From Frankia nepalensis (GTDB taxonomy: Bacteria; Actinomycetota; Actinomycetes; Frankiales; Frankiaceae): a DNA stretch of 64,000 nt. The position numbers and the translations under genes are program-made. Location of the stretch: contig NZ_JADWYU010000205.1 in NCBI RefSeq assembly GCF_016786325.1, positions 1-64,000 on the forward strand, given 5' to 3'. A model generated the notes under the pieces. That model made no database searches. It had not been told where the DNA came from and saw only the letters and a program-made list of their open reading frames with translations. Positions 25,180 through 64,000 of this stretch are shown piece after piece; within the stretch, counting starts at the first letter, position 1, and each line of letters starts with the position of its first letter.

Positions 25180-25216
25180 GTCGTGGTCGCGTTCCAGCCT
25201 CGAACGCGACCACGAC
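25180..25216. terminator. Hairpin between FMO and esterase genes
   Basis: A perfect 14-bp stem (25180-25193 with 25203-25216) and 9-nt loop lie in the 119-bp gap. There is no T-tract, so it may attenuate rather than fully stop transcription into the downstream hydrolase gene. Confidence 0.55.
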
Positions 25217-26261: not shown

Positions 26262-26851
26262 CGCCCCCGGGGCTAGTCCCAGATGACCTCCTCGACGGCG
26301 GTCGCCGTGACCGCGCGGCGAAGCCACCGGTCGAGCTGGTCGGTTCTGTGCGGCCCTCGCCGCCCTTTATCACCAGCCGGGCGGGACGTGCAGGCGGTCG
26401 ACCGTGGCCGGCAGCTGGCATGCCTCGAAGTCCGCGGCCTTCAGCTGATACCACCAGTGCCGCCCGGCGCCCTCGGCGGGCGTCCCCCGCGGCGCTCCCG
26501 CACTCCCATCGGGCACGGCCAACTGAATGCTGCCCTGGTGGACACCCTTCCTGGTGCCGCCTCAGGTGATGTCTGCCCGGGCGACAGGTCGGGCGGCCAC
26601 TCCGCTCCCGCATCCTGGCGGACATCTGGGGGATCCCGGACGTCCTGTCCGACGTGAGGGTCACGAAACGGTGCTGGTCGTGGCTCTGATGTCTGACGCG
26701 ATTCCCCCTGCCGTCGGACAGGACGAACTCGCGGCCGCACGCGGGCACCGGGTGAGCGTTGCCGCTCGTCAGACCAGCCGAGGACCGGCCGTAGGGGTCG
26801 GTGCCGGCCTCTTCGTCCGGAATCGGGCCCGATTCCGGACGAAGGGCGGCC
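26262..26851. other. Intergenic region ending in a long palindrome
   Basis: A 590-bp stretch between convergent genes. Several overlapping frames are open on both strands, but none has recognisable protein features, a ribosome-binding site or a consistent codon pattern. A 34-bp perfect palindrome lies at 26811-26844, just beyond the IclR stop. Confidence 0.55.
26811..26844. terminator. 34-bp perfect palindrome, probable terminator
   Basis: CTTCGTCCGGAATCGGG is followed directly by its exact reverse complement, giving 17-bp arms with no spacer. It starts 7 bp beyond the stop of the minus-strand IclR gene, where a terminator of the mhp-type operon is expected. A perfect spacer-free palindrome this long is unusual; see findings. 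Confidence 0.6.
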
Positions 26852-43091: not shown

Positions 43092-43113
43092 GGGACCTCC
43101 CAGCGATGTGCAA

Positions 43114-43132
43114 GATACACATAATGTGTATC
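43114..43132. promoter_or_regulatory. Operator palindrome GATACACA-TAA-TGTGTATC
   Basis: Perfect 8-bp arms with a 3-bp centre, 23 bp upstream of the MFS start in an AT-rich stretch. A classic TetR-type operator position over the pump's promoter. Confidence 0.65.
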
Positions 43133-43140
43133 AGGCATAT

Positions 43141-52467: not shown

Positions 52468-53748
52468 ATGGTGTTAGCGCCTTACCGGCGATCGCCGCGG
52501 TCCAGGGCGGCGCTCGCCGCGAGCACCGTCGGCCTCGCCGCCCTTGTCGCCTGCGGCGGCCCGACGAACGAGACCGCCAGCGTCGGGATCTCCTGCGAGA
52601 CCACCGCGCCGGGGGTCACGGCGACGGAGGTCAAGATCGGCCTCCTGCATGACGACAGCGGGCCGAGCGCCGAGGCGATGCGCGCCTTCCGGGGCGGTGT
52701 CGATGCCCGCCTCGGCGTCACCAACGAGGAGGACGGCGGCGTCTTCGGCCGCACGGTCACCTATGCCTGGCGCGACGACCAGGCGGATCCGTCGATCAAC
52801 CTGCAGGCGGCCCGGCAGCTGGTCACCGACGAGAACGTCTTCGGGATCATCGAGGCTCCGGGCGCCGAGGCGGGCTCCGCCGAGTGGCTCCACCAGCAGG
52901 GCGTCCCGGTGACCGGCCTAGCGAGCGACCGACTCTGGACGCGGTACGACAACATGTTCTCGTGGTTCTACCTGGGTGAGGGCTCCGTCACCACGTGGGG
53001 CGACTTCATCCGGTCGCGGGGCGGAACCCGGGCCGCCGTGTTCGCAATCTCCGGGAACGAGGCCAACTTCGACTTCAGCCGCCAGTTCAAGGCCAGCCTG
53101 CTGGAGACCGGCGTTGAAATCATTAATATCTTTGAAGTCGCCGGTACGACCAACTACGTGAACATCGCGCAGCAGATCAAGGCGAGCGGCGTCGACACCA
53201 TCGCCGGAGTGCTGCTGCCGGACGCCGCCGCGGAACTGCTGCCTGCCCTGCGTGACGCAGGCGTACGCCCCAAGGTCGTCATGATGCCACTTGGCTACGA
53301 CCAGAACGTGCTCGCGCGGTATGGCCAACAGCTGGCCGGCACGGTCATCTACTCCGCCGTCAAGCCATTCGAGCTCAACACCACGGAACAGCAGGCGATG
53401 CTGACCGCGATGACCACGTACGCGCCGCAGGCCAAGCCGCCACAGCAGGACAGCGCGGTCGACGGCTACGTCGCCGCCGACCTGCTCCTGCGCGGCCTGC
53501 GGGAGGCCGGCGCGTGCCCGACCCGGGAATCGTTCATCAACGCCCTGCGCGCCGTGAACGACTACAACGGGGCCGGTCTGATCCCTCACTCCGTGGACCT
53601 GTCGACCAACCGGAACAAGATCTCCGTTTGTTACAGCTTTGTCCAGGTCGGCACCGACGGCCAACGGTTCGTTCCGCTGAGCGAGGACGCGACCTGCGGC
53701 CAGGAGATCACCTCACAGAAGATGGACCAGCTTCTGTCGAATCCGTAA
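52468..53748 (+). CDS. Orphan ABC substrate-binding lipoprotein, paralogue 1
   Basis: 426-aa LivK-like type 1 binding lipoprotein. Lipobox A-A-L-V-A-C at Cys29; domain begins VTATEVKIGLLHDDSGPSAEAMRAFRGGVDARL. Shared blocks with the next two genes: GGVFGRTVTYAWRDDQAD, VFGIIEAPGAEAGSAEWL, FAISGNEANFDFSRQFKASLLETGVEI, ACPTRESFINALRAVNDYNGAGLIP. The third codon is the rare leucine codon TTA. No permease or ATPase gene is nearby, so it may feed a transporter encoded elsewhere or act as a sensor. The most diverged of the three. Confidence 0.9.
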   Translation: MVLAPYRRSPRSRAALAASTVGLAALVACGGPTNETASVGISCETTAPGVTATEVKIGLLHDDSGPSAEAMRAFRGGVDARLGVTNEEDGGVFGRTVTYAWRDDQADPSINLQAARQLVTDENVFGIIEAPGAEAGSAEWLHQQGVPVTGLASDRLWTRYDNMFSWFYLGEGSVTTWGDFIRSRGGTRAAVFAISGNEANFDFSRQFKASLLETGVEIINIFEVAGTTNYVNIAQQIKASGVDTIAGVLLPDAAAELLPALRDAGVRPKVVMMPLGYDQNVLARYGQQLAGTVIYSAVKPFELNTTEQQAMLTAMTTYAPQAKPPQQDSAVDGYVAADLLLRGLREAGACPTRESFINALRAVNDYNGAGLIPHSVDLSTNRNKISVCYSFVQVGTDGQRFVPLSEDATCGQEITSQKMDQLLSNP

Positions 53749-54061
53749 CATCTCGCCGGATAGGTTGATCCGGCGAGCGCACGCCCTGACGACCGGTCCC
53801 GGAATGACCTTCCGAGACCAGACGGTGTCTGTTGAGAGGGGCTCCGATATTTGTCGGAGCCCCTCTTTTGCATGGCATAGAGACCTCACTAGTATCCGCC
53901 TCGAAACGGAAACCAGCTCGAGACCCGCCGCCAAGCCGATACGCTCCGCGCCAGATCCCCTCCTTGACGCCGAGTCACCACGTTATCGACGCACACTCTC
54001 CCGGCGCGGAGGATGTTACCCCCGAGGAACATCCCCGCGACCACGACCAAGGAGCCGCGCC
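53749..54061. promoter_or_regulatory. Terminator-promoter spacer before paralogue 2
   Basis: A 313-bp spacer with a T-tailed terminator (53835-53869) followed by CACTAGTATCCGCCTCGA (53887-53904). The same order occurs before paralogue 3 (55481-55556), so the spacer was duplicated with the gene. TAGTAT is a possible -10 element. Confidence 0.5.
53835..53869 (+). terminator. Rho-independent terminator with T-run
   Basis: A 13-bp perfect stem (53835-53847 with 53854-53866), a TATTTG loop and a TTTT tail. It separates paralogue 1 from paralogue 2 and is a near copy of the one at 55481. Confidence 0.88.
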
Positions 54062-55342
54062 ATGTCGTTACCCGTCCAGAAGCGATTAGTGCGCGGCGCC
54101 GCGCTGGCCGCCAGCGCGAGCACCCTCGCCATGGGCCTCGCGGCCTGTGGCCAGGCCGGCTCGGGCACGGCCGGCGGGGTGTCCTGCGACGCCTCCGCGC
54201 CCGGCGTCACCGACCAGGAGATCAAGCTCGGGCTCACCTGGAACGACACCGGCGATGGCGCGGCGAGCCTCGCGGCCTTCCGGGGCGGGATCGACGCCCG
54301 GCTGGAGCTCGCCAACACGAACGGCGAAATCTTCGGACGCAAGATCACTTATGCGTGGCGGGACGACAAGGCCGACCAGGCGCTCAACGCCCAGGTCACC
54401 AGGGAGCTGGTCGAGGACGAAGGGGTCTTCGGCATGATGACGGCACCCGGGGGCGCCGGCGGCTCGATCGAATGGCTGGCCGAGCAGAACGTCCCGGTCA
54501 CCGGCATGGGCAGCGACCCGCTCTGGCAAAACCGCGGCAACATGTTCTCCTTCTACTACCTCGGCGAGGGCTCGAACACTGCCTGGGGCAAGCTCATCCG
54601 CGAACTGAGCGGCACGCGGGCGGCCGTGTTCGCGATCTCGGGAAGCAAGTCCAACTCCGACTTCAGCCGCCAGCTCGCCGCGAGCCTGCTGGAATCCGGC
54701 GTCGAGATCGTCAAGACCTACCAGGTCGCCGAGGCAGTCACCAATTTCGAGGCCATCGCCCAACAGATCAAGGCAAACGACATCGACACCCTCGCCGGCG
54801 TCGTCCTCCCGAACATCGCCATCGAGCTCCTACCGGCGCTGCGTGCCCGAGGTGTCCAGCTCAAGGCCGTCGTGATGCCGCTCGGCTACGACGACAGCCT
54901 TCTCCACGAGAACGGGGCGAGTCTCGCGAACGCGGTCATCATCAGCCAGATCAAGCCCTGGCAGGCCAACACCCCGGAACAGCACACCTTCCTCGAGATG
55001 ATGAACACGTACTCCCCGCAGATCCAGCCGGCGACCACCGACATGGCCGTCGACGGCTACGTGACCGCGGACCTGTTCGTCGAGGGCCTCAAACTCGCCG
55101 GCGAGTGCCCGACCCGCGAGTCGTTCATCTCGGCGCTGCGCGCCGTCACCGACTACCCGGGCGCCGGACTCATCCCGAAGGATGTCGACCTGAGCACGAA
55201 CTACAAGGAGCCCAACTCCTGCTACAGCATCGTCCAGGTCACCCCCGACGGCACGGCGTTCGCCCCGCTGTTCGACGCCAAGCCGCTGTGCGGCGACCTG
55301 ATCACGACGGACCGGATGAACCAGTTGCTCGGCACCGCGTAG
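54062..55342 (+). CDS. Orphan ABC substrate-binding lipoprotein, paralogue 2
   Basis: 426-aa LivK-like lipoprotein from ATG 54062. The longer frame upstream is non-coding spacer. Lipobox G-L-A-A-C at Cys29. Nearly identical to paralogue 3 over the first 60 residues (MSLPVQKRLVRGAALAASAS...), then diverging steadily, most in the ligand-contact segments. TTA codons occur at positions 3 and 9. The ligand is unknown; the family binds amino acids, aromatic acids or amides. It has its own terminator and promoter region, so each copy can be expressed separately. Confidence 0.9.
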   Translation: MSLPVQKRLVRGAALAASASTLAMGLAACGQAGSGTAGGVSCDASAPGVTDQEIKLGLTWNDTGDGAASLAAFRGGIDARLELANTNGEIFGRKITYAWRDDKADQALNAQVTRELVEDEGVFGMMTAPGGAGGSIEWLAEQNVPVTGMGSDPLWQNRGNMFSFYYLGEGSNTAWGKLIRELSGTRAAVFAISGSKSNSDFSRQLAASLLESGVEIVKTYQVAEAVTNFEAIAQQIKANDIDTLAGVVLPNIAIELLPALRARGVQLKAVVMPLGYDDSLLHENGASLANAVIISQIKPWQANTPEQHTFLEMMNTYSPQIQPATTDMAVDGYVTADLFVEGLKLAGECPTRESFISALRAVTDYPGAGLIPKDVDLSTNYKEPNSCYSIVQVTPDGTAFAPLFDAKPLCGDLITTDRMNQLLGTA

Positions 55343-55697
55343 CCGGGCGCGGGAGCATCACCGTCGCACGATCGTGGCGGCCACCGGCCGCGGCCGCGAC
55401 TGGCCCGCGCTGGTTCGCGTGCCATGCGCCGTCGGCGACTGGCGCGCGGAATGGCTTCCAAGGCCGCGCAGAACGCGTCGAGAGGGGCTCCCGAAATTTG
55501 TCGGGAGCCCCTCTTTTGATGTCACATAGAGGGTTCACTAGTATCTGCCTCGATAGGAAGAGCCAGCGGAGAGCAACCCAAGCCGATGCATGCCGGCCCT
55601 TCTTCGGCGCCAGGCCATGACGTTGTCGGCGCATGCTCTCCCGACGCGCGGGATGCACCCCGGAGCATCCCAGCGATCATGACCAAGGAGTCTTGTC
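55343..55697. promoter_or_regulatory. Duplicated terminator-promoter spacer before paralogue 3
   Basis: A 355-bp spacer with terminator 55481-55517 and TTCACTAGTATCTGCCTCGA at 55531-55550, nearly the same as in the 53749-54061 spacer. CCAAGGAG near 55683-55690 precedes the start. No gene seen. Confidence 0.5.
55481..55517 (+). terminator. Rho-independent terminator with T-run, second copy
   Basis: A 14-bp perfect stem (55481-55494 with 55501-55514), AATTTG loop and TTTT tail. Compared with 53835-53869 it has one extra base pair, conserved on both arms. Confidence 0.88.
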
Positions 55698-56981
55698 ATG
55701 TCGTTACCCGTCCAGAAGCGATTAGTGCGCGGCGCCGCGCTGGCCGCGAGCGCGAGCACCCTCGCCATGGGCCTCGCCGCCTGCGGCCAGGCCGGCTCGG
55801 GCACGGCCGGCGGAGTATCTTGCGACGCCTCCGCGCCCGGCGTCACCGAGAAGGAGATCAAGCTCGGGCTCACCTGGAGTGACACCGGCGACGGCGCGGC
55901 CAGCCTCGCCGCCTTCCGCGGCGGGATCGACGCCCGGCTCGGTCTCGCCAACGAGGAGGAGGGCGGGATCTTCGGCCGCAAGATCACCTATGCCTGGCGA
56001 GACGACCAGGCCGACCAGCAGGTCAATGCCCGGGTCGCCCGGGAGCTGGTCGACGACGAGGGGGTCTTCGGCATGATGATGGCCCCCGGGGGTTCCGGTG
56101 GCTCGATCGAGTGGCTGGCCGAGCAGAACGTCCCGGTCACCGGCATGGGCAGCGACCCGGGCTGGGAAAACCGCGGCAACATGTTCTCCTTCTACTATCT
56201 CGGCGAGGGCGCCAATACCGCCTGGGGCAAGCTCATCCGCGAACTGGGCGGCACGCGGGCCGCGGTGATCGCGATCTCGGGAAGCAAGTCCAACTCCGAC
56301 TTCAACCGCCAGCTCGCCGCGAGCCTGCTGGAATCCGGCGTCGAGATCGTCAAGACGTACAACATCGCCGAGGCGATCACCAATTACGAGGCCATCGCCG
56401 ACCAGATCAAGGCGAACCGCATCGACACCCTCACCGGAACTTTCCTGCCGGCCATGGCCGTCAACCTCCTTCCGGCGCTGCGCGAGCGGGGCATCGAGCT
56501 CAAGGCCCCCGTGCTGCCGCTCGGCTACGACGACAAACTTCTCCATAACGACGGCGCGAGCCTGCGGAACGCGGTCATCGTCAACCAGATCAAGCCATGG
56601 CAGGCCAACACCCCGGAGCAGCGGGCCTTCCTCGAGGCGATGAACGCATACGCTCCGCAGATCCAGCCGGCCACGACGGACATAGGCGTCGACGGCTACG
56701 TCGCCGCGGACCTGTTCCTCAAGGGCCTGGAGCTTGCCGGCGAGTGCCCGACCCGGGAGTCCTTCATCGCGGCGCTGCGCGCCGTGACGACGTACGACGG
56801 CGGGGGCCTCATCCCACGGCCGGTCGACCTGACCACGAACTACAAGGAGCCCAACTCCTGCTACAGCATCGTCCGGGTCACCCCCGACGGCACGGCGTTC
56901 GCCCCGCTGTTCGACGCCAAGCCGCTGTGCGGTGACCCGATCACACCCGAACGCATGAACCAGTTGCTCGGCACCGCGTAG
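55698..56981 (+). CDS. Orphan ABC substrate-binding lipoprotein, paralogue 3
   Basis: 427-aa LivK-like lipoprotein, lipid attachment at Cys29. High identity to paralogue 2 (MGSDPxWENRGNMFSFYYLGEG, AISGSKSNSDFNRQLAASLLESGVEIVKTY, PNSCYSIVRVTPDGTAFAPLFDAKPLCGD). Like paralogue 2 it has TTA codons at positions 3 and 9. Differences cluster in the central ligand-binding part, which suggests altered ligand preference after duplication. No transporter partners nearby. Confidence 0.9.
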   Translation: MSLPVQKRLVRGAALAASASTLAMGLAACGQAGSGTAGGVSCDASAPGVTEKEIKLGLTWSDTGDGAASLAAFRGGIDARLGLANEEEGGIFGRKITYAWRDDQADQQVNARVARELVDDEGVFGMMMAPGGSGGSIEWLAEQNVPVTGMGSDPGWENRGNMFSFYYLGEGANTAWGKLIRELGGTRAAVIAISGSKSNSDFNRQLAASLLESGVEIVKTYNIAEAITNYEAIADQIKANRIDTLTGTFLPAMAVNLLPALRERGIELKAPVLPLGYDDKLLHNDGASLRNAVIVNQIKPWQANTPEQRAFLEAMNAYAPQIQPATTDIGVDGYVAADLFLKGLELAGECPTRESFIAALRAVTTYDGGGLIPRPVDLTTNYKEPNSCYSIVRVTPDGTAFAPLFDAKPLCGDPITPERMNQLLGTA

Positions 56982-57292: not shown

Positions 57293-57910
57293 GTGTCCGT
57301 TGGCAGAGTTTCCGACCGCGAGCCGGCGGTGCCGCATCCCACCCCTCAAGGGCTCAGGACGCGTCAACGAATAATCGAGGCCGGAGCCGACCTACTCCAC
57401 GGTTTTCCGATCTGGAACTGGAGCGCGCTGACCGTGCCCGCGGTCGCCGCGCGCGCCGGCGTCGCGGAGCGAACCGTGTACCGCCATTTCCAGTCGGAAC
57501 GTGGCCTGCGCGACGCGGTCATGGTGCACCTCGAGCACGAGGCCAACGTAACAATGGACGGCCTGCGGCTCGAGAACGTGGCCGAGGTCGCCAGTCGCAT
57601 CCTCGAGCATTCCTCGCGGTTCCCGCTGGTCCCACGGACGCAACGAGACCCGACGGTGGCCGCGACCAACGCGAAGCAGCGCCACGCGCTCCTCGCCGCG
57701 GTGGAACCGCACACGGGATCCTGGTCCAGAGACGACCGCACCGTCGCGGCGGCGATCCTCGACCTGCTGTGGAGCGTCGTCGGCTACGAACGCCTCGTCT
57801 CCGACTGGAACCTCGAACCCCAGGACGCGATCCGCGGAACAGCCTGGGCGATCCGCCTGATCGAGGAAGCCATTCGATCGGACCGTCCCCCGGCTCACCC
57901 AGGACGCTAG
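57293..57910 (+). CDS. TetR-family transcriptional regulator
   Basis: 205-aa TetR protein from GTG 57293. HTH at about 22-70: RTRQRIIEAGADLLHGFPIWNWSALTVPAVAARAGVAERTVYRHFQSERGLRDAVMVHL. It sits directly before the aldehyde dehydrogenase cluster and is the best candidate to bind the TGTCAG-N6-CTGACA sites at 58040, 63813 and 63834. Its own upstream region lacks that site, so it may not autoregulate. Confidence 0.9.
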   Translation: MSVGRVSDREPAVPHPTPQGLRTRQRIIEAGADLLHGFPIWNWSALTVPAVAARAGVAERTVYRHFQSERGLRDAVMVHLEHEANVTMDGLRLENVAEVASRILEHSSRFPLVPRTQRDPTVAATNAKQRHALLAAVEPHTGSWSRDDRTVAAAILDLLWSVVGYERLVSDWNLEPQDAIRGTAWAIRLIEEAIRSDRPPAHPGR

Positions 57911-58034: not shown

Positions 58035-58062
58035 CCGAGTGTCAGAGTTCTCTGACACTCGG
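58035..58062. promoter_or_regulatory. 28-bp operator palindrome before the aldehyde dehydrogenase
   Basis: CCGAGTGTCAGAG-TT-CTCTGACACTCGG: perfect 13-bp arms with a 2-bp centre, containing TGTCAG-N6-CTGACA at 58040-58057. It ends 35 bp before the ATG at 58098. Two further copies of the core lie at 63813-63830 and 63834-63851. Confidence 0.75.
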
Positions 58063-58097
58063 CCTTATGATCACTTCGACCCTTCGGAGGAGGTGTC

Positions 58098-59561
58098 ATG
58101 GCGGACTCCGGGTACGACAGGACACGGCCTGAGGTGCACCTGAGAATCGGGGCCGAGCGACTGGCCGCCGGATCGGGAGGAACGTTCGAGCACGTGGATC
58201 CGTGCACGGGCGACGTCGACGCCGTCATCCCCCTCGCCGGGCCCACGGAGATAGACCGAAGCGTCCGGCTGGCGCACGAGGCGTTCCTGACATGGCGGGA
58301 CGTACGCCCGGCGGAACGGCGGCGGCTGCTGTCACGGCTGGCCGACCTCATCGAGAAGAACGCCGACGAGTTCGTCCGCCGCGCCGTTCTCGACAACGGC
58401 ATGCCCGTGACCTCGGCGGCCGGCCTGGCCGCCGGCGCGGTGGAGTGGACCCGGTACTACGCCGGATTCGCCGACAAGATCTCCGGCCGGGTCGCCTCCT
58501 CCTTCGGACCGGACGGCGAGTTCGGCTACACGCTCGCCCAGCCCTACGGCGTGATCGGCGCGATCATCACCTGGAACGGCCCGCTGACCTCGTTGTCGAT
58601 GAAGGTGCCACCGGCGCTGGCCGCGGGAAACACCGTGGTCGTCAAACCGTCGGAGCTCACGCCGTTCGCCGCCGACCTGTTCGCCGACCTGGTGGCCGAG
58701 GCGGGCCTGCCACCGGGAACCGTGAGCGTACTGCCGGGCACCGGCGCGGCCGGCGCCGCGCTCGTCGAGCACCCGCTCGTGCAGAAGATCTCGTTCACCG
58801 GTGGCCCGGTGACCGCGAAGGCGATCCTGCGAGCGTGCGCCGAGCAGATGAAGCCAGCGCTGCTCGAGCTCGGTGGCAAATCCGCGAACCTCATCTTCGA
58901 GGACGCCGACCTGGACGTAGCCCTCACCTGGGGCGCGCTGCGCGTCCTCGGAACCGTCAGCGGGCAGGGCTGCGCCTTCCCCACCCGCATGCTCGTGCAG
59001 GAGTCCGTCTACGAAGAGGCGGTCGACCGGGTCGCGCGCATCGTCAAGGGGATCCGGGTCGGCGACCCGTGGGACACCGACACCGACATCGGCCCGGTCG
59101 TGAGCCAGGCCGCGGTCGACCGCATCCTCGGCATGATCGAACGGGCGAGGCAGGACGGCGCCCGGCTCGTCGCGGGCGGCGGACGGGCGCCCGGCCCGCT
59201 GTCCGGCGGCTACTACCTCGAGCCGACCGTCTTCGCCGACGTCGGTCCGCACACCGAGCTCGGCCAGGTCGAGGTCTTCGGGCCCGTGTTGTCGATGATG
59301 CCCTTCTCCACCGAGGAGGAGGCGATCGAGATCGCCAACTGCACCAGGTACGGCCTGTCGTCCTACGTCCAGACCAGGGACGTCCGCCGGGCGCACCGGG
59401 TCGCCGAGCGCCTGACAGCCGGCGCGACGATGATCAACGGCGCGCCGAACCTGATGGTGAACCGCCCGTTCGGCGGCCAGGGGTACAGCGGCTATGGGAA
59501 GGAAGGCGGGCCGGACGGCCTCGCCGAGTTCCAGCGGACCAAGACGATCGCGATGGTCTGA
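58098..59561 (+). CDS. Aldehyde dehydrogenase
   Basis: 487-aa ALDH-superfamily enzyme from ATG 58098 with GGAGGAGG upstream. General base Glu257 in L-E-L-G-G-K-S, catalytic Cys292 in S-G-Q-G-C-A-F, cofactor motif ITWNGPL at about 157-163 (Gly-Pro-Leu in place of the usual Asn-Phe-Pro). Resembles the BADH/phenylacetaldehyde branch. First gene of a small catabolic operon under a strong operator palindrome; it would oxidise an aldehyde released by the cluster's oxygenases. Confidence 0.92.
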   Translation: MADSGYDRTRPEVHLRIGAERLAAGSGGTFEHVDPCTGDVDAVIPLAGPTEIDRSVRLAHEAFLTWRDVRPAERRRLLSRLADLIEKNADEFVRRAVLDNGMPVTSAAGLAAGAVEWTRYYAGFADKISGRVASSFGPDGEFGYTLAQPYGVIGAIITWNGPLTSLSMKVPPALAAGNTVVVKPSELTPFAADLFADLVAEAGLPPGTVSVLPGTGAAGAALVEHPLVQKISFTGGPVTAKAILRACAEQMKPALLELGGKSANLIFEDADLDVALTWGALRVLGTVSGQGCAFPTRMLVQESVYEEAVDRVARIVKGIRVGDPWDTDTDIGPVVSQAAVDRILGMIERARQDGARLVAGGGRAPGPLSGGYYLEPTVFADVGPHTELGQVEVFGPVLSMMPFSTEEEAIEIANCTRYGLSSYVQTRDVRRAHRVAERLTAGATMINGAPNLMVNRPFGGQGYSGYGKEGGPDGLAEFQRTKTIAMV

Positions 59562-59615
59562 CCCACGGAAGAATGACCGTCGGTGGTCATCTACGACACC
59601 TCGAGGATTCCCGCC

Positions 59616-60308
59616 ATGATCAAGAATATCTACTTGGTGGAACACACCGCGGAATCCGCCCGCCAGGTGACCGCACGGCGCGCCGCGGCGACGGCGGCGC
59701 TCTCGGCTCCGCCAGACGTCCGCCCAGTACGCGTGGCGGTCTGCGCCGCGCTGCCCGACGTGCTGCCCGTTCCTCGGTTCGAGGCCGTCGTCCTCGAGTG
59801 GTTCGTGGACGACGCTCACCAGGCACGGTTCGCGTCATGGCTGGCCTCGCCCGAAGGCGCCGCGGCCGGCGAGGGGCTCAGGGCGACGGCGATGGCGACG
59901 GCGGAAGCCGGCCAGCTCGTCGTCGCCAGGGAGCACCCGATGCGAGGCGCGGACTGGCTGGAGCGGCGGTGGCGCGAAGGCGGCACCGCCGTGAAGCACA
60001 TGGCGATCGCGCGGCGCGCCGCCGGCCTGAGCCGCGACGAGTTCTCCGAGCTGTGGCGGAACCGGGCGGGCAAGGTCGGAGCCACCCCCATCCCCGCCGA
60101 GGCGCGCGGGAACGCCTATGTCCAGAACCATCCGCTGCCGACCGACGGCCATGACTGGCCCTTCGACGCCGTGAACGAGGTCTATTTCGACGATCTCGAG
60201 GGCCTGCGCGCGCGCATCGCGTGGTTCGCCGAGAACTTCGACGGCGTCGGCGAGGACGATCTGGTCGCGGAATCGTGGTTCGTCGCCGTCCGCGAGGAGA
60301 TCCTGTGA
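59616..60308 (+). CDS. EthD-domain protein
   Basis: 230-aa protein. ATG 59616 has GAGGA 8 nt upstream; the in-frame GTG at 59583 is less likely. The C-terminal half (about 120-230) is an EthD dimeric alpha-beta barrel: MAIARRAAGLSRDEFSELWRNRAGKVGATPIPAEARGNAYVQNHPLP..DAVNEVYFDDLEGLRARIAWF. The N-terminal half may be a degenerate second barrel. EthD is needed with P450 EthB for ether degradation in Rhodococcus, and a P450 gene lies in this cluster, so a helper role for that P450 is possible. Confidence 0.8.
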   Translation: MIKNIYLVEHTAESARQVTARRAAATAALSAPPDVRPVRVAVCAALPDVLPVPRFEAVVLEWFVDDAHQARFASWLASPEGAAAGEGLRATAMATAEAGQLVVAREHPMRGADWLERRWREGGTAVKHMAIARRAAGLSRDEFSELWRNRAGKVGATPIPAEARGNAYVQNHPLPTDGHDWPFDAVNEVYFDDLEGLRARIAWFAENFDGVGEDDLVAESWFVAVREEIL

Positions 60309-60387
60309 CCCGCGGTGCCCCGCCGCGTTTTCCGCGGCGCTTTCCAGGCGTCCTTTCTCGTCCGTCCGTCCCCGGGCCGGGGCGCCC

Positions 60388-61317
60388 GTGACCGGCGGCC
60401 CGCCGGCGGTCGGTCTCATGCTCGCCACGGTGGCCAATCCCGACACAGGGGCGGTCGATCCAACGAGAGTGATCGAAAGCGCGCGGCGGGCGGAAGAGAC
60501 GGGTTACGACGGCGTCTATGTCGGCGACCATCTGCTGCACCCGCACTCGATGCTGGAGTCCGTGGTCACGCTGGCGGCCGTGGCGGCGTCGACCCGCCGC
60601 GTCTCCCTGGGGCCGTGCGTGCTGCTGTTCGCCCTGCGCCACCCGCTCGTGCTGGCCAAGCAACTCGGCACGCTCGCCGCGTTCGCGCCGGGGCGGCTGC
60701 GCGTCGGCGTCGGCGTCGGCGGGGAGTACCCGGCGGAGTTCGACGCCGCCGGTGTCCCGCTGGCACACCGCGGTCGACGCATGGAATCTGTGCTCCGTGA
60801 GGTGCGATCCCTGCTGGGAGGCGGTCCGGAGCTCGCCGACGTGGCGATCGAGCCCAAGGCACCCGATGTCTCGTTTCTGTTGGCCGGTTGGAAGGAGGCG
60901 TCGCTGCGGCGCGCCGCGACCTACGGCGACGGATGGATCGGCTACCTGCTCGCGCCGGAAAGCTTCGCCCGGCGCCGCGCCTTCCTGCTTCAGTGCCGGG
61001 CCGAACTAGGACGCGCGGACGAGGGGTTCGGCACCGGCATGTTGCTGCCCGTCCATGTTCATCGGCAGGGCCACGGCCAGGTGAGCGCGGCCGCGGCCTG
61101 GGCACGGCTCACCGGCTCCACCGGAGGGTTTCCGGACCGTCTGTTTGTCACGGGTGACCCGGACGACGTCGTCGGACGTCTCCGCCGCTATTGGGAGGCA
61201 GGCTGTTCCGAGTTCATACTCGCGCCCGCCGACCAGGGCCGTGGCTACCTGGAGCAGGTCGACATACTCGCGCGTGAGGTGCTCCCCCGGCTGAGGGAGT
61301 TTCCCGTCGCCTCGTGA
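60388..61317 (+). CDS. LLM-class F420-dependent oxidoreductase
   Basis: 309-aa luciferase-like protein from GTG 60388. VGLMLATVANPDTGAVDPTRVIESARRAEETGYDGVYVGDHLLHP, STRRVSLGPCVLLFALRHPLVLAKQLGTLAAFAPGRLRVGVGVGGEYPAEFDA are typical of F420-dependent family members in mycobacteria and Frankia. It may reduce or oxidise a cyclic intermediate. Seventy-nine bases separate it from the EthD gene. Confidence 0.87.
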   Translation: MTGGPPAVGLMLATVANPDTGAVDPTRVIESARRAEETGYDGVYVGDHLLHPHSMLESVVTLAAVAASTRRVSLGPCVLLFALRHPLVLAKQLGTLAAFAPGRLRVGVGVGGEYPAEFDAAGVPLAHRGRRMESVLREVRSLLGGGPELADVAIEPKAPDVSFLLAGWKEASLRRAATYGDGWIGYLLAPESFARRRAFLLQCRAELGRADEGFGTGMLLPVHVHRQGHGQVSAAAAWARLTGSTGGFPDRLFVTGDPDDVVGRLRRYWEAGCSEFILAPADQGRGYLEQVDILAREVLPRLREFPVAS

Positions 61318-61443
61318 GCTCCGCGGGAGGCACCGACGCCTGGCCTGCTCCGTCTGGCCTCCTCTTCGAGGCGCCGCGTGATCGGCCCGTCGACCGCGCG
61401 CGGGCCCGGCGCTGACATCGGGCCCGCGTCGGATGGCGCGCCG

Positions 61444-62658
61444 TCACAAGGTGACCGGCAGCCTGGCGAACCCTCGGACCGTGAGATGGGGCCGGAACTC
61501 CGGCTCCTCGGCCGCGGAAAGCGAAAGATTCGGGAAGCGGTTGAAGATGCGGCTCACCGCGAGCCTGGCCTCCATCCGCGCCAGTGCGGCCCCGAGACAC
61601 AGGTGGTGGCCCAGCCCGAAGCCCATGTGCCGGTTCACGCGACGCCGGATGTCGAACGTCTCGGCGTCCGCGAACTCCTCCGGATCTCGGTTCGCGGCGG
61701 CGAGCAGCGGCACCACCGCGTCGCCCTCGCGAAACTCCGCTCCGCCCACCCGCGCAGCGGCGGTGATCGTCCGTGGCCGCATCATGTGGACCGGAGGGTC
61801 GAAGCGCAGGACCTCCTCGATGGCGGTCCGGATGTGCGCGGGTTCCGCGGTCAGCAGGGCCAGTTGATCGGGGTGGCGCAGCAGCTGGTAGATGGCGTTC
61901 GTGATGAGGTTGGTCGTCGACTCGAAGCCGGCCAGCAGCAGCAGTCCGGTATTGCTCAGCAGCTCCTCCTCGCTGGCGAGCCGTCCGTCCTCGGCTGCCT
62001 CGATCAGCCGGCTCATCAGGTCATCTCCGGGGTGATCACGCCGAATCGCCACTAACGTGGCGATATAGTCGCGTAACCGCTGATTAGCGGCGTTACGTTC
62101 GTCAATCGGCACGTCCGGGTCGACCGACCGGGTCACGGCATGGCCGATGGCGACGAACTGGTGGCGCTCCTCCGGTGGCACCGCGAGCAGATCACAGATG
62201 ACCAGTATCGGCAGCATCACCGCGAAGTCCGACACCAGATCAATCGCCGGGCCGTCCAGGTCGTCGAGGAGTTGATCGACATATCCGGCGATCATCGGCT
62301 CGCTCGCCTCGACGCTGCGCACCGAGAAGGCCCGGGTGAGCAGGTTGCGCAGCCTGGCGTGATCGGGCGGATCCAGCTCGAGTATCGTCCGGCTCTTGCG
62401 GGCCTGGGTGAGCTGACGCTCGCGCACGTCCGGATCACGGGATAAGGAGTTCTGAAAGGCCCTGGTCGTGAGGGTGTCGTAGCTCAGGGCCGGGTCGCGG
62501 AACAGCGCGTGGCAGTCCTCGTATCGCGACAGGTAGTAGACCCCTTCGGCCGAGCGCCATACCGGAGACTCCTCGCGCATCCGCCGGTACGTCGGATAGG
62601 GGTCACGTCGCAGCTCGGCGTCCGTCGGGTCGAACAACGCCTCGGTGTCCTTGCTCAT
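61444..62658 (-). CDS. Cytochrome P450
   Basis: 404-aa bacterial class I P450. I-helix L-L-L-A-G-F-E-S-T-T-N, E-x-x-R in E-E-V-L-R-F-D...P-R-T (K-helix region), and the heme loop F-G-L-G-H-H-L-C-L-G-A with Cys354 as axial ligand. No ferredoxin or reductase gene is adjacent. Convergent with the plus-strand ALDH/EthD/LLM genes. It probably starts attack on the pathway substrate by hydroxylation or dealkylation. A TTA codon lies in Q-R-L-R-D (about residue 191). Confidence 0.93.
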   Translation of the reverse strand: MSKDTEALFDPTDAELRRDPYPTYRRMREESPVWRSAEGVYYLSRYEDCHALFRDPALSYDTLTTRAFQNSLSRDPDVRERQLTQARKSRTILELDPPDHARLRNLLTRAFSVRSVEASEPMIAGYVDQLLDDLDGPAIDLVSDFAVMLPILVICDLLAVPPEERHQFVAIGHAVTRSVDPDVPIDERNAANQRLRDYIATLVAIRRDHPGDDLMSRLIEAAEDGRLASEEELLSNTGLLLLAGFESTTNLITNAIYQLLRHPDQLALLTAEPAHIRTAIEEVLRFDPPVHMMRPRTITAAARVGGAEFREGDAVVPLLAAANRDPEEFADAETFDIRRRVNRHMGFGLGHHLCLGAALARMEARLAVSRIFNRFPNLSLSAAEEPEFRPHLTVRGFARLPVTL

Positions 62659-62707
62659 CGCGTGTCCTCCTGTGGAGAGCGGGCGATCGGCGGCCTGCCC
62701 GACGACC

Positions 62708-62767
62708 GTTCAACCGGCGGTCCAGCCGCTCAACCGGCGGTCCAACCGTTCAGCCGGCGGTCCAGCC
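62708..62767. repeat. Three 20-bp tandem repeats across the SDR stop codon
   Basis: GTTCAACCGGCGGTCCAGCC and two close variants at 62708, 62728 and 62748. The SDR stop (62750-62752) lies in the third unit; the repeat fills most of the gap to the P450 gene. Confidence 0.8.
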
Positions 62768-63502
62768 GCCATCCACCACGAGATAGGAGCCGGTCATGTA
62801 GGAAGCATCGTCGGAGGCCAGAAACGCGGCGACCGAGGCCACCTCGTCCGGGTGGCCCGCGCGGTTCAGGGCCGACTTCGAGGCCGCACGCCGGACGGCC
62901 TCGGGGAATTCCCGCTCGCCCATGAGGGTCATCCCGGTCGGGTAGATGAACCCAGGGCAGATGGCGTTAACCCGGATGTTTGCTGTGCCCCACTCGCGAG
63001 CCGCTGTTCGGGTCATCGACAGGATTCCGGCCTTCGAAGCGCCGTAGACGGCCGTGTGTGGCGACGACACGAGGCCTCCCACCGAGGACCAGTTGATGAT
63101 CGAACCGCCGCCGCTCGCCACCATTGCGGGGATCGCGTACTTCATGCCAAGGAATGCGCTCTTGAGGTTGATCGACATCAGCTTCTCGTAGTCGAGCTCG
63201 TCGATGTCCGGAATGGCTGCCTGCGCGATTCCGGCGACGCCCACGACATTGCACAGGACGTCGAGCCGACCGAACGTCCTGGTGGCGACCGCGACGAGTG
63301 CCTCGACGTCCGCGGCGTTGGTGACGTCAGCGCGTACCGGAGTGATCGAGTCCGGAAGCTCCGCCGCGGTCTCGTTCTCGGCGCCGCTCAGATCCGCGGC
63401 GAGGACGTTGGCACCCTCACGGGCGAGGCGAAGCGCGGTGGAGCGTCCCTGCCCGATCCCAGCACCGGTGACGATGGCGACCTTGCCGGTCAGACGTGCC
63501 AT
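62750..63502 (-). CDS. Short-chain dehydrogenase/reductase
   Basis: 250-aa classical SDR from ATG 63502 (GGGGAGGAC upstream). T-G-A-G-I-G-Q-G-R is at about 11-19, AADLSGAEN after beta-2, NVVGVAGI in place of NNAG, catalytic Tyr and Lys in V-Y-G-A-S-K, C-terminal GSYLVVDGGW. It oxidises a secondary alcohol to a ketone, or the reverse. Upstream of the P450 gene on the same strand, 91 bp apart. Frame extensions upstream are not coding. Confidence 0.92.
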   Translation of the reverse strand: MARLTGKVAIVTGAGIGQGRSTALRLAREGANVLAADLSGAENETAAELPDSITPVRADVTNAADVEALVAVATRTFGRLDVLCNVVGVAGIAQAAIPDIDELDYEKLMSINLKSAFLGMKYAIPAMVASGGGSIINWSSVGGLVSSPHTAVYGASKAGILSMTRTAAREWGTANIRVNAICPGFIYPTGMTLMGEREFPEAVRRAASKSALNRAGHPDEVASVAAFLASDDASYMTGSYLVVDGGWTAG

Positions 63503-63812
63503 GTCCTCCCCTTCCTCGAAGCGCTCGCTCCCGCCAGCGCGCATGAGTACCAGGCGCCGCCTGGCCGCCAGCCGAGGGCGGCCAACCTGCCCGCGCACGG
63601 CAGGGAACTGGACCAGCCAGGCGCGCCCTGGTCGAGAATGGCGAGAACGCGGCGCCCGCGCACGGCGGCGCGGCCCGGCGCCATTGGCCCCGATCCCGCC
63701 GACGGGCGCGAGAATCCCGCCGCTCGTCGGCCCGGCGCGAGCCAGCACGATCCTCCTGGGCAGCATCCGGCCGGGGCGCAAGAAGCGCGCCCGCCGCGCC
63801 GACAGCGCATGT

Positions 63813-63830
63813 TGTCAGAGCCTGCTGACA
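63813..63830. promoter_or_regulatory. Operator core TGTCAG-N6-CTGACA, copy 2
   Basis: Lies within wider 11-bp arms CATGTTGTCAG / CTGACAACATG (63808-63818 with 63825-63835). Shares its core with 58040-58057. Confidence 0.65.
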
Positions 63831-63833
63831 ACA

Positions 63834-63851
63834 TGTCAGTGCACTCTGACA
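63834..63851. promoter_or_regulatory. Operator core TGTCAG-N6-CTGACA, copy 3
   Basis: Starts within the flank of copy 2, giving two sites on a 21-bp period (two helical turns). It ends 41 bp before the ATG at 63893, almost the same spacing as the site before 58098 (40 bp). Confidence 0.65.
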
Positions 63852-63896: not shown

Positions 63897-64000
63897 GGCG
63901 GCCGCCGGGGCGGAAAGGTCGGAGCGCTGGCCGCCAGGTCGCCCACCCGCCGACCGCGACGCGGGCGCCCGCGCCGCGGCGGGCACCGTCACGGCGGGCA

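Follow-up and report, generated by a model that had tools for sequence, protein, structure and literature searches.

The window analysed here comprises 64,000 nt from the genome of the soil actinobacterium Frankia nepalensis and contains, towards its end, a TetR-family regulator gene, a cluster of catabolic genes and three copies of the inverted repeat TGTCAG-N6-CTGACA (Table 1). Domain searches verified that the TetR gene starting at 57293 and the genes for an aldehyde dehydrogenase (ALDH), an EthD-domain protein, an LLM-class oxidoreductase, a cytochrome P450 and a short-chain dehydrogenase/reductase (SDR), all proposed in the first-pass annotation, are real. The order is TetR (+), site 1, ALDH-EthD-LLM (+), P450 and SDR (-), and sites 2 and 3, so that two convergent units carry candidate operators at both of their outer 5' ends. 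TetR and ALDH are co-oriented and 187 bp apart. The EthD reading frame opens at 59583, but homology begins at residue 11-12 of this longer frame, and the ATG at 59616 is therefore the more likely start. The LLM-class oxidoreductase is probably F420- or FMN-dependent, and the solved structures nearest to the P450 are CYP164A2 and a vitamin D hydroxylase. Together, the P450, SDR, ALDH, LLM and EthD proteins suggest a stepwise oxidation of a hydrophobic substrate.

Table 1 Features of the TetR/ALDH/P450 locus in window coordinates.
Feature	Position	Strand	Remarks
TetR-family regulator, 205 aa	57293..57910	+	GTG start; recognition helix AERTVYRHF; Pfam TetR_N (PF00440) 35.4 bits, cutoff 24, 9e-9
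O1, candidate operator	58035..58062		CCGAGTGTCAGAGTTCTCTGACACTCGG; core 58040-58057
Candidate -10 TATGAT of ALDH promoter	58066..58071	+	read from sequence; just 3' of O1; no consensus -35
ALDH ribosome binding site	58086..58093	+	GGAGGAGG; read from sequence
Aldehyde dehydrogenase (ALDH), 487 aa	58098..59561	+	Pfam Aldedh 1.9e-147
EthD-domain protein	59616..60308	+	Pfam EthD 1.7e-7
LLM-class (luciferase-like) oxidoreductase	60388..61317	+	Pfam Bac_luciferase 6e-38; NCBIfam TIGR03619-like, below cutoff
Cytochrome P450	61444..62658	-	Pfam p450 2e-31; heme-ligand motif FGLGHHLCLG intact
Short-chain dehydrogenase/reductase (SDR), 250 aa	62750..63502	-	domain search
Fossil of LLM gene 3' end	63585..63673	-	90 bp, 74% identical to L155:7896-7985, E 3e-8
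O2, candidate operator	63808..63835		CATGTTGTCAGAGCCTGCTGACAACATG; core 63813-63830
O3, candidate operator	63834..63851		TGTCAGTGCACTCTGACA

A pattern search of the window returned the three cores at exactly the positions first noted (58040-58057, 63813-63830 and 63834-63851) and no further exact match. Site 1 lies in the middle of a near-perfect inverted repeat of 28 bp and ends, as already described, 40 bp before the ALDH ATG (58098). The outer flanks had been called palindromic but different from each other, which applies to site 1 (CCGAG../..CTCGG) and site 2 (CATGT../..ACATG) but not to site 3 (ACA and GCG). The statement that sites 2 and 3 bracket the end of the cluster has to be corrected, as both lie upstream of SDR, at a distance of 311 bp from the start codon. 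The cores of O2 and O3 start 21 bp apart, which corresponds to two helical turns and places them on the same face of the helix. None of the three sites overlaps a coding sequence of the cluster, and the positions of O1 and O2/O3 provide what is looked for in TetR-family operators, namely a palindromic site near the presumed regulated promoter. No TGTCAG-type site was found at the promoter of the TetR gene itself, which argues against autoregulation via this motif.

In the whole genome (10,728,764 bases) the exact core occurs three times, all inside 5.8 kb, while a backwards control pattern had 0 matches across the 10.73 Mb. By simple arithmetic, the chance of finding 3/3 genomic copies within such a distance is ~1e-6. 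When the genome was scanned with the fuller consensus TGTCAGAGnnCTCTGACA, allowing up to 3 mismatches, the local sites scored 0, 1 and 2 mismatches and seven scattered places were detected beyond them, compared to 4 for the control. The motif is thus local, and the earlier proposal of a compact regulon gains support from sites that are unique to the cluster and situated at the 5' ends of both units.

A scan for consensus sigma-70 promoters was negative both at site 1 and at O2/O3. Reading of the sequence behind O1 nevertheless points to a candidate -10 element of an ALDH promoter, the -35 region of which would fall inside the site 1 palindrome. Since site 1 is a near-perfect inverted repeat between two genes, we also considered that the palindromes might be transcription terminators, hairpin or REP-like elements, or products of chance. 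Neither site 1 nor O2/O3 is associated with a terminator-like T run, site 1 precedes the candidate -10 element and the ribosome binding site, and O2/O3 are not located at a 3' end. Moreover, the palindromes have no further copies in the genome and their clustering is hardly expected by chance (see above), which makes this explanation extremely unlikely.

The bare core TGTCAG-N6-CTGACA is present in one to two copies in each of seven sister genomes, in other contexts and with other N6 sequences, so that the hexamer does not by itself indicate the TetR of the window. One of these contexts is an HTH protein (GGATAACC type), the other a tyrosine-recombinase/Clp-N region (TTTGAA type). We did not accept these matches as conservation of the sites, as they belong to other genes. 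In four loci, TGTCAGGnTAnCCTGACA is found at the start of the HTH protein gene (L005, L007, L009 and L011, position 1501), and in four others TGTCAGTTyrAACTGACA-type sites precede the tyrosine recombinase/Clp-N gene pair (L006, L008, L010 and L013, position 1501). In Pseudofrankia sp. BMG5.36, a P450 orthologue of 64% identity lies ~7 kb from such a core without other cluster genes or a TetR, and was regarded as a coincidence.

The enzymes themselves are conserved in the family, with ALDH orthologues of 88/84/83/74% and SDR orthologues of 78-84% identity. One genome of the Frankia group (G026) contains a single operon ALDH-LLM-SDR-P450, the genes of which are 88/42/80/82% identical to those of the window, and other Frankiaceae contain ALDH-SDR or parts of that operon. 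A decayed remnant of the cluster was observed in Frankia sp. EI5c (L066/L114), with fragments of ALDH (91%), P450 (82-88%) and LLM (84%) beside an EthD gene (70%). In the relatives, the orthologous enzyme clusters are accompanied by neither the TetR of the window nor a convincing match to the motif, and the regions upstream of ALDH differ from one another. Nor was the motif found at any of the 13 loci with clusters around EthD orthologues (44-70% identity), and a P450 scan of 85,000 genomes returned ten loci without an intact cluster. The first-pass annotation had named a motif lacking near orthologous clusters as evidence against its assignment. Taken literally, this is what we found; however, the TetR is missing together with the motif, and the link between the two is therefore not refuted.

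Between SDR and sites 2/3 lies the fossil of an LLM gene; its counterpart in the G026 operon is the 3' end of LLM, which stands there before SDR. As this 90-bp stump remains upstream of SDR, the SDR-P450 half seems to have been cut from a G026-like operon, leaving the end of LLM behind. The ALDH half would now stand with EthD and LLM genes, a pairing of a kind that also occurs in other relatives. With regard to direction and timing, we infer that an ancestral-type single operon was split in the window into two convergent units. The motif is the sole common feature found in the two new promoters, and its presence at both new 5' ends after the split argues that the sites are functional.

In the genomes sampled, no orthologue of the window TetR was closer than about 54% identity, the best relatives being ~52-54% identical. 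Its own site could therefore not be footprinted directly, and we used the subfamily instead. This subfamily is found almost only in Frankiaceae: 15 of the 35 genomes of the family contain at least one member, compared to 1 among 395 genomes sampled from elsewhere in the phylum (alignment A1). No viral contig encoding the window TetR was found. For 50 distinct TetR relatives, almost all from Frankiaceae, the recognition helix was placed by alignment to the TetR_N family and inverted repeats were sought next to the gene. All nine relatives with the helix V[A/T/S]ERTVYRHF had a [CT]GTCA-N6..10-TGAC[AG] inverted repeat within 700 bp of the gene, whereas such a repeat lay beside the gene in 2 of 41 relatives with other helices (Fisher 2e-8, on about five orthogroups and thus not on 50 independent trials). 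The background of the repeat is 0.17 per 3.5 kb. The first seven loci with this helix, except L030, served to write the rule, so that the count is not a clean test of it; two members added afterwards (G024 and G029) both comply and are orthologues of L030.

In a maximum-likelihood tree, the V[A/T/S]ERTVYRHF helix is dispersed among at least four lineages, the repeat going with it. The window TetR (VAERTVYRHF) is placed on a long branch as sister to a VTERTVYRHF group (support 95/83). The three members of this group, from two genera (G002, G006 and G022), share the repeat TTCATGTCAG-N8-CTGACATGAA, located 20 bp downstream of the TetR stop codon and upstream of a phosphotransferase-like gene. 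Members of the subfamily often adjoin P450 or SDR genes. Locus L104 has the layout of the window, with TetR followed by TTCGCGTCA..TGACGCGAA and then ALDH. In G022, TTCGCGTCATGATGCTGACGCGAA lies between another subfamily member and the ALDH behind it. In relatives with the helix VNESTVYRHF, the conserved palindrome is a different one, CTCGTGCAAGAnnTCTTGCACGAG, which resembles an operator and is conserved upstream of these TetRs in five genomes of the genus (L036, L018, L019, L023 and L037). The gap between GTCA and TGAC varies from 6 to 10 among the relatives and is 8 in the window, a variation that counts against the assignment. Overall, the association between helix and half-site lends support, at the level of sequence comparison, to the earlier assignment of the sites to the TetR at 57293.

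The published rule for predicting a TetR target relies on a divergent neighbour at less than 200 bp, co-orientation being less reliable (PMC3511530); in the window, TetR and ALDH are co-oriented and the rule does not apply. Circuits of the QacR, KstR2 and BkaR type resemble the one proposed here in the TetR_N HTH and in a palindromic operator of ~18-28 bp in the promoter of an adjacent gene, and KstR2 and BkaR are likewise located at catabolic genes in actinobacteria. They differ in operator sequence, and the window TetR is co-oriented with its target and has no site at its own promoter. The published sites of SAV151, a TetR-family protein of Streptomyces avermitilis (GAACTGACACTCTAGCTTGTCAGTTC; PMC10933834 Table 2), contain the same hexamer with the half-sites in opposite order (CTGACA-N8-TGTCAG), a likeness that concerns the sites. 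The nearest solved structure to the window TetR is AvaR1 (5e-7, with a match over the HTH region only). The window TetR is not a member of the ScbR/AvaR gamma-butyrolactone receptors, given this HTH-only match and a score far below the family cutoff (NCBIfam NF041196, 24.9 bits versus 150).

A TetR need not regulate its neighbouring gene, and a second TetR (contig 65836-66525) is encoded only ~2 kb from O3, so that the sites could be operators of this protein or of an unlinked factor. However, the second TetR has a distinct palindrome of its own, TCTTGGGAGAATGGTATTCTCCCACGA, and lacks a TGTCAG site at that place. If an unlinked global factor were responsible, further sites would be expected across the genome, but none were found, and the association of helix and half-site favours the neighbouring TetR at 57293. 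We therefore consider another regulator improbable.

The second TetR lies beyond the window, divergent from acyl-CoA dehydrogenases, and TCTTGGGAGAATGGTATTCTCCCACGA (L004:10612-10638), situated between it and an acyl-CoA dehydrogenase gene, is its probable operator. The second TetR follows the last gene of a tandem array of four paralogues for substrate-binding proteins (window 52468-56981 and contig 64522-65796, L004:8523-9797), which the cluster interrupts between copies 3 and 4. Copies 2 and 3 show 80-85% DNA identity to copy 4, upstream DNA included. Two related palindromes, AGGGGCTCCGATATTTGTCGGAGCCCCT and GGGGCTCCCGAAATTTGTCGGGAGCCCC (window 53837-53864 and 55484-55511), lie behind the first two genes of the array and are probably terminators. 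Other strong palindromes at window 26814-26841, 25184-25212 and 43109-43137, for example a perfect 28-bp CGTCCGGAATCGGGCCCGATTCCGGACG, and TGCAAGATACACATAATGTGTATCAGGCA, may serve other regulators as operators. Behind site 3, the non-coding DNA contains about five copies of a 15-bp tandem repeat, CGGCGGACACCGTCA (L004:7978-8065, window 63977-64000 and beyond).

Taken together, it is very probable that O1-O3 are operators of the TetR at 57293-57910, which would repress both units until it is released by a small molecule. A TetR dimer would bind the TGTCAG half-sites; occupancy of O1 would cover the -35 side of the candidate TATGAT element at the ALDH-EthD-LLM promoter, and the tandem pair O2/O3 would be bound on one helix face, on the outer side of the convergent SDR-P450 genes. 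Both units would be kept silent by the bound TetR, and the releasing small molecule would presumably come from the oxidative pathway, as its substrate or one of its intermediates. This local circuit of two promoters and three sites would be recent and superimposed on enzymes that in relatives are encoded in one operon under other control.

Binding at O1-O3 is what we infer from the sites and the subfamily, and so is repression rather than activation. The TetR might instead activate, or the units might respond differently, with repression at O1 and another response at O2/O3. O2/O3 are remote from the SDR start and without a recognisable promoter, and AtrA, a published family member with a long intergenic distance, is an activator (PMC3511530). 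On the other hand, O1 overlaps the promoter spacer, which is the classic position of a repressor, TetR-family members are mostly repressors (PMC3511530), and the LLM fossil accounts for part of the 311-bp gap. Activation or a mixed response thus appears fairly unlikely, and repression of both units is the reading we retain.

Judged from its sequence, the locus is most likely a species-level, local TetR regulon, new but of an ordinary kind; a limited search of papers returned no earlier report of the TGTCAG-N6-CTGACA motif with a TetR in Frankia. The general picture of bacterial regulation is unchanged, and the added value lies in the helix/half-site association and the documented rewiring. A wider reading, to which we give slightly less than an even chance, is that of a TetR subfamily largely of Frankiaceae, often beside P450, SDR or ALDH genes, with a readable helix code (V[A/T/S]ERT for GTCA and VNEST for TGCAAG half-sites), in which the broken and rearranged ancestral operon of the window would have come back under joint control via the same operator at both new promoters. 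The locus is a clear example of regulatory rewiring: the enzymes are conserved, their operon has been divided, and each of the two new 5' ends carries the same new candidate operator. For a TetR subfamily with at least 50 members, all uncharacterised and many located beside P450s, it provides a defined, testable candidate operator, and the pair of operator and TetR could act as a sensor for the substrate of the pathway.
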